A DNA stretch of 48,789 nt. Source: Bacteroidia bacterium (lineage in GTDB: Bacteria; Bacteroidota; Bacteroidia; UKL13-3). This document shows positions 41,543 through 42,436 of the stretch, one piece after another. The first letter of the stretch is position 1, and every line of letters begins with the position of its first letter. Location: NCBI GenBank assembly GCA_020049855.1, contig JAGVLJ010000008.1, positions 1 through 48,789 on the forward strand, written 5' to 3'. Both the position numbers and the translations under genes were made by a program. The notes under the pieces were generated by a model. The model searched no databases and was not told the DNA's origin. It saw nothing but the letters and a program-made list of their open reading frames with translations.

Positions 41543-41680
41543 ACTAATTAAAGTTTTTTGTTCTAATTTTTTATTACCTTTATGAAACTGAAATGAAGGC
41601 AGTTCAATTATACGAAAAAACTGTCAACCGAAGAACTGCAAAAGTGCTTGCAAATGCGTTGGCATTTATTTTTAAGTATT

Positions 41681-41704
41681 ACTTATAGTCTTTGATTTAT
41701 AGTC
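41681..41704 (+). promoter_or_regulatory. Tandem C-box-like operator
   Basis: Two near-identical 10-base sites, ACTTATAGTC (41681-41690) and ATTTATAGTC (41695-41704), lie 14 bases apart start to start. The first contains the symmetric ACT-TAT-AGT. They sit directly upstream of a small Cro/C1-type gene. Layout and sequence closely resemble the tandem C-boxes bound by controller proteins of restriction-modification systems, in which ACTTATAGTC-type sites and a following AACAT are typical; here AACAT follows at 41705. The resemblance is from memory of the motif and should be checked by alignment. Confidence 0.65.
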
Positions 41705-41719
41705 AACATATTCTGGCTT

Positions 41720-41947
41720 TTGTCTCGTGGATGTAAAAAAAAATCGGTCATAAGGATAAAAGAACTTCGTGAGGCACGGGGGATGTTTCAGAAGGACTTG
41801 TCTTATGCTGCCGATTTAGAGAGAAGTTACATTGCAAGTGTTGAAAACGGTCAACGGAATATTTCTATTGTCAATATTGACAGAATGGCCATCGAACTAG
41901 GCGTAAATCTTAAGGAGTTTTTTAACGATGGCGAATTTAGCAAATAA
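41720..41947 (+). CDS. Controller-like XRE-family regulator
   Basis: A 75-residue HTH protein matching Cro/C1-type and restriction controller proteins: RIKELREARGMFQKDLSYAADLERSYIASVENG, then ISIVNIDRMAIELGVNLKEFF. The helix-turn-helix is at about residues 24-45, and the size is right for C proteins. The only in-frame start near the domain is a TTG at 41720. An ATG at 41731 lies in another frame and runs straight into a stop, next to nine A bases (41735-41743). The true start is thus uncertain. The operator at 41681-41704 lies just upstream. A short unknown ORF follows, but no methyltransferase or recognisable nuclease, so it looks like a leftover of a restriction-modification locus. Confidence 0.72.
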   Translation: MSRGCKKKSVIRIKELREARGMFQKDLSYAADLERSYIASVENGQRNISIVNIDRMAIELGVNLKEFFNDGEFSK

Positions 41948-41979
41948 TCATATCAGGTATTCCTTTCAATCAAATTCTG

Positions 41980-42213
41980 ATGCAAGATGCCTTAAATCAA
42001 ATAAAGGCAGGCATAGCGAATGCAATAATAACAAATGGGGAAGCAGGTAAAAACGCATTGATAAGAACACAAGAGCCAATTAATTTGATACACAATGTTG
42101 TTAAAACAGCTTTTTTGAATGCAGGTGTTCATCCAAGTTTGATAAATCCTGAATTGTGGCGATTGCAAAGGGTTGCAAATCCACCTGCAAGAGCAAACAA
42201 TCGTAAGAGATAA
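41980..42213 (+). CDS. Short unknown ORF after the controller gene
   Basis: A 77-residue reading frame, 32 bases after the controller gene and on the same strand, from MQDALNQIKAGIANAIITNG to a basic end ARANNRKR. It contains the conserved-looking segment LIHNVVKTAFLNAGVHPSLINPELW. I do not recognise a family. In restriction-modification loci the gene after the controller is usually the nuclease, so this may be its truncated N-terminal part or an intact small protein; position is the only evidence. Composition and codon use look genuinely coding. Confidence 0.5.
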   Translation: MQDALNQIKAGIANAIITNGEAGKNALIRTQEPINLIHNVVKTAFLNAGVHPSLINPELWRLQRVANPPARANNRKR

Positions 42214-42378
42214 AGAAATCCGAAAACCACCAGAGTGAAACGTCTAAATCGGCAGCTATCAGGTTCTGCTACCTTATTGCGGCAGCTTGGTTGCCGGGAA
42301 AATCGGGTTTGTGCTGCCGTTCGTGGGAAATATTCATCAGGTGGTCGGATAATAGTTGAAGCCTGCTGCGGTTAAGGT

Positions 42379-42386
42379 TACTTTTG
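42379..42386 (+). promoter_or_regulatory. -7 promoter box for sppA
   Basis: TACTTTTG matches TAnnTTTG and ends 50 bases before the ATG at 42437. It separates sppA from the controller locus. Confidence 0.5.
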
Positions 42387-42436
42387 TATGTTACTAAAAT
42401 GGCCATTCAAAAATTAATTTAAATCAGCGACCACAT

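Follow-up and report, generated by a model that had tools for sequence, protein, structure and literature searches.

The purB–sppA interval

The DNA analysed here is a stretch of 48,789 nucleotides (the window), a contig from a Bacteroidia bacterium (JAGVLJ010000008.1), in which the gap between purB and sppA holds a 626-base relic of a restriction–modification system. On the forward strand it comprises, in order, a decayed piece of a hairpin element, a cassette leader, a tandem C-box operator with its promoter, a controller (C) frame and a fragment of a restriction endonuclease (R) gene. Its ends were located by comparison with a sister species (G002; SppA 93% identical), whose co-linearity with the window breaks off after 41597, next to purB, and resumes at 42224, towards sppA. 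The relic therefore spans 41598–42223 (+ strand), almost exactly the interval of 41593–42213 singled out in the initial annotation. Between the same two points the sister species carries genes of 740 and 710 residues; the second is full-length there, and all that survives of it in the window is a stretch of ~25 terminal codons (42224–42300, + strand) matching its 3′ end.

The interval is variable more generally (window 41598–42223 and locus L122): the sister species has two large genes in it, the window has the restriction–modification relic, and in several relatives purB and sppA lie close together. A 28-residue frame at 41593–41676, tested as a possible methylase fragment, belonged to no family and gave no relevant match; it overlaps the decayed hairpin piece. 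A stem–loop at 42230–42436, after the relic, was not stronger than those of shuffled sequences, was not repeated in the genome and is native sequence.

Operator and promoter

The tandem C-box operator, ACTTATAGTC-TTTG-ATTTATAGTC (41681–41704, + strand), consists of ACTTATAGTC at 41681–41690 and ATTTATAGTC at 41695–41704, spaced 14 bases start to start and followed by AACAT at 41705–41709. The two C-box-like sites and the trailing AACAT that had been noticed at the outset are thus present in the sequence as described, and the 24-bp operator is nearly invariant across 45 aligned promoters of relatives in which C and R are accompanied by a methylase (M) gene (C–R–M units). Immediately upstream lies a cassette leader (41634–41680, + strand) with 81–86% identity over 48–49 nt to the sequences upstream of intact C operators in loci L031, L033 and L034.

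The 2.9-Mb, 84-contig genome contains one perfect copy of the composite operator, and matches with up to two mismatches number nine, versus 52 for the reversed control. The genome search for other copies that the initial annotation had proposed returned no second one; with the operator occurring once in this genome, no other direct target was therefore found. The motif ACTTATAGTCTTTGNNTTATAGTC, with one mismatch allowed, occurs in 3 of 395 Bacteroidota genomes (0 for reversed-pattern controls); at both of the other sites a C gene comes next, and then an endonuclease gene from the family represented here.

Bacteroidota promoters carry TTTG at −33 and TAnnTTTG at −7. The TTTG spacer between the C-boxes is probably the −33 element; the 45 aligned promoters have a second block, nAnnTTTG, 20 bases beyond the spacer TTG, with an ATG or GTG start 4–5 bases further on. 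By analogy, the C transcript probably reads as leaderless, its −33 element lying in the gap that separates the C-boxes. For the C.PvuII class, both paired GACT-tat-AGTC sites and C transcripts without a leader have been described (PMC4824078). The −7 box of the window (41715–41722, + strand) is damaged, reading GGCTTTTG here versus GACTTTTG: its second base, A in 45/45 relatives, is G at 41716. A further change, from G to A at 41678 (−2), also affects a base that is the same in all 45.

The controller frame

Downstream of the operator, the frame at 41720–41947 matches the PADLOC Control_protein model (E = 8.2e-19) and, among solved proteins, C.AhdI (1y7y; E = 2.7e-12), with C.BclI and C.Esp1396I also nearest. 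It encodes a small HTH_3 protein like known C proteins, with the tandem C-box operator directly upstream, and the proposed C-protein-sized HTH gene is borne out by these matches, except that its listed start needed correction. That TTG, at 41720, falls within the −7 promoter box, whereas relatives start at the GTG corresponding to 41727–41729. A search of GTDB species genomes yielded 48 loci, 45 of them at 62–84% identity to C and almost all from Bacteroidota.

From the ancestral GTG the frame is broken, and alignment of the DNA with intact relatives identifies C as a pseudogene (41727–41947, + strand). Relative to all of these, the A-run at 41735–41743 is two bases shorter and there is one extra T near 41751, a net change of −1. 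Five residues that are invariant in 42 relatives (one of them in 41/42) are also altered, including a serine replaced by phenylalanine in the helix-2 SQ motif and an aspartate replaced by glutamate in LDRSY. A C.Csp231I variant with three changes in its SQE motif gave reduced restriction in vivo (PMC4824078). About 62 C codons nevertheless remain open downstream of the damaged start and both operator boxes are perfect, so C has decayed either recently or incompletely. If the length of the A9 run is off by one base, through misassembly or slippage, the native frame of C could be open again; neither the promoter change nor the substitutions would be affected.

These observations bear on the proposal that the gene is a live solitary controller reused for another gene, neighbouring or distant. 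Such a role would fit the intact operator boxes, the C frame that is open past its start region and the presence of sppA downstream on the same strand. We consider it very unlikely: the start of C, the −7 box and the five (nearly) invariant residues are damaged, the operator is present as a single copy with fewer two-mismatch matches than its reversed control, and sppA has, by inspection, its own promoter-like sequence after the relic.

The endonuclease fragment

The 77-residue open reading frame that follows C had been described as unknown. It is instead the N-terminal third of a restriction endonuclease, as the suggested comparison with endonuclease families made clear: it matches the Type II family PDLC03558 (PADLOC, E = 2.4e-7) and is about 80% (79%) identical to residues 9–86 of a 304-residue relative. 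Alignment with loci L036 and L039 extends the R pseudogene over 41928–42217 (+ strand), which amounts to some 100 of the 304 codons, counted from the start of the gene. One additional T near 41953 shifts the frame by +1, an 11-bp deletion lies near 42203 and the gene is then truncated; the 77-residue frame starts downstream of the frameshift and ends at a stop made by the deletion. None of the residues that are invariant from E100 onwards in 33 aligned R proteins is retained. The dN of R between the window and its relatives is 0.14–0.15, compared with 0.039 between the intact R genes of L036 and L039, and the genome holds no second copy of R.

Two short adjacent frames, the second without a match in Pfam, NCBIfam or PDB sequence searches, could be read as a complete two-gene module of regulator and 77-residue effector or toxin rather than as a restriction–modification remnant. 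We give this virtually no credence, as the product corresponds to an internal N-terminal stretch of a 304-residue endonuclease, is bounded by a frameshift on one side and a deletion-made stop on the other, and lacks every residue invariant beyond E100 in the full enzyme.

The R fold was modelled confidently (pLDDT 88) and had no significant match in the PDB, the best being weak matches to BbvCI (E = 0.05). At five related loci, C and one convergent methylase enclose a tandem pair of paralogous endonucleases of this family (L032:5161-6897, L040:5182-6892, L043:5143-6892, L045:5161-6898 and L047:5182-6906); these loci possibly encode a heterodimer resembling BbvCI, to which the fold has its best, though weak, match.

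Intact relatives and the missing methylase

In loci L036 and L039, the end of C overlaps an R gene of 304 residues, and the gene for an Eco57I-class N6-adenine methylase of 631–649 residues is convergent, a layout common to more than 30 further Bacteroidota loci. The intact relatives pair endonuclease family PDLC03558 with methylase family PDLC03335. No methylase of this family is present in the window, in keeping with what had been noted initially, or elsewhere in the genome, where the best match, part of a 1002-residue frame, is 31% identical.

An intact system could in principle appear degraded through assembly or sequencing error. The C lesion lies in a homopolymer, and similar single-base gaps occur at the start of C in L030 and L031, from a draft with N bases; as N bases occur within runs of this kind in that assembly, we gave the gaps of L030 and L031 no evidential weight. 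Error is an extremely improbable explanation here, given that M and two thirds of R are missing within one continuous 48.8-kb contig, that both flanks are co-linear with the sister species and that substitutions at invariant sites are not homopolymer errors.

Two other groups of loci were observed. The same operator and C are found in L071, L072 and L074 without a homologue of this R or M nearby; an ORF of ~200 residues and a convergent one of ~380 residues are present instead, probably another restriction–modification family under the same control. Further C–R–M units of the present family, in L037, L042 and L061, show apparent truncations or frameshifts; such decay is therefore recurrent.

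attC-like arrays and a probable cassette origin

A hairpin element lies upstream of the intact C–R–M units of L030, L031, L033, L034 and L036, and local alignment identified a decayed 33-nt piece of this attC-like element in the window (41600–41632, + strand). The alignment score against the elements of L030, L033 and L036 was reached by none of 1,000 dinucleotide shuffles; that against L034 was not significant. A covariance model built for the element placed it upstream of the operator in eleven C–R–M loci (weakest E = 0.02) and in 71 of 148 Bacteroidota genomes (including L163, L164 and L165), often in multiple copies clustered on one strand; arrays of this type may therefore be common among Bacteroidota. 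The model did not match the window, which keeps only the 33-nt decayed piece; an origin of the relic in a gene cassette is therefore no more than probable.

One such array is that of the chromosome CP058707.1 (MAG SSA2), covered by loci L030, L031 and L134–L160, with 338 attC-like hairpins in one orientation over 507 kb (3,475,217–3,982,498) at a median spacing of 0.7 kb. There is about one gene per unit, the longest ORF being on the opposite strand in 188 of 211 intervals that hold a single gene. Across 34 aligned copies, 11 of 14 stem pairs have compensatory changes, and the element ends in AAC and GTT. It had no match in Rfam, and our literature searches, confined to open-access papers, found none describing these hairpin arrays.

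In integron integrases, the catalytic domain carries a specific insertion (PMC8138268). A 371-residue XerA-like tyrosine recombinase located about 3 kb beyond the final CP058707 hairpin is, by inspection, without this insertion and scores below the IntI cut-off. A canonical IntI was rejected for CP058707, as no frame exceeds the TIGR02249 cut-off and the adjacent recombinase is XerA-like. The array looks like a very large integron-like array without canonical IntI.

Discussion

Homology, gene order, lesions, boundaries and the absence of M together identify the relic, very probably, as the fossil of a C-controlled Type II restriction–modification system. Of the two readings offered initially, that of a degraded system is upheld by intact homologous C–R–M operons, the R fragment in its expected place, the lesions and the clean boundary; that of a reused controller is not, since the C frame and promoter are damaged and the genome has no second operator, so this is no working solitary controller. 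With C damaged, R cut to its first third and M gone, the locus is an ordinary genomic fossil and no new regulator; most likely it does nothing.

We infer the regulatory mechanism from the biology of the C.PvuII/C.Esp1396I class and, with it, an order of events and a cassette route. In the ancestor, a dimeric C protein would have bound tandem C-boxes straddling the −33 element of a Bacteroidota-type promoter, activating at low level and repressing at high level a leaderless transcript encoding C and the overlapping R, with the convergent Eco57I-class adenine methylase protecting the host. The C–R–M unit would have entered next to purB, probably in the form of a gene cassette accompanied by a flanking hairpin element. 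A deletion may then have taken the whole of M together with two thirds of R and the greater part of the native gene that follows, after which the remainder would have gathered frameshifts and substitutions. Tentatively, and with rather more reserve, we suggest that the relic may have entered as a cassette of a widespread Bacteroidota system in which one-orientation arrays of ~127-nt attC-like hairpins carry C–R–M operons and are probably served by an Xer-type recombinase, not a canonical IntI.

The relic offers a clear case of a C-controlled restriction–modification system dying, with the operator surviving longest, and cautions that a leftover operator and HTH frame should not be taken for a solitary regulator. 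The window itself carries little weight and the by-products matter more: a precise consensus for Bacteroidota C-box promoters, with C-boxes around a −33 TTTG and probably a leaderless start, and the presence of intact C–R–M units as cassettes in large attC-like arrays of Bacteroidota, in which complete integrons have been reported to be rare (PMC9024848).

The intact C–R–M units resemble integron cassettes (attC and CALIN arrays) in the hairpins that flank them, which share one orientation, end in AAC...GTT and have a covarying stem; they differ in that the nearest recombinase is XerA-like, no IntI reaches the curated cut-off and recombination is here putative. With the endonuclease family PDLC03558 and methylase family PDLC03335, the relic shares the N-terminal part of R, in the form of the 77-residue frame, whereas its R ends at about codon 100 and its M is gone. 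Its closest counterparts in regulation are C.PvuII, C.AhdI and C.Esp1396I, with which it has in common the HTH_3 fold of about 75 residues, a C gene overlapping the start of R and two GACT-tat-AGTC-type sites (as in PMC4824078). It departs from them in that C is here a pseudogene and in that the spacer is TTTG, as the −33 element of a Bacteroidota promoter, in contrast to the GT-centred spacer of that class.
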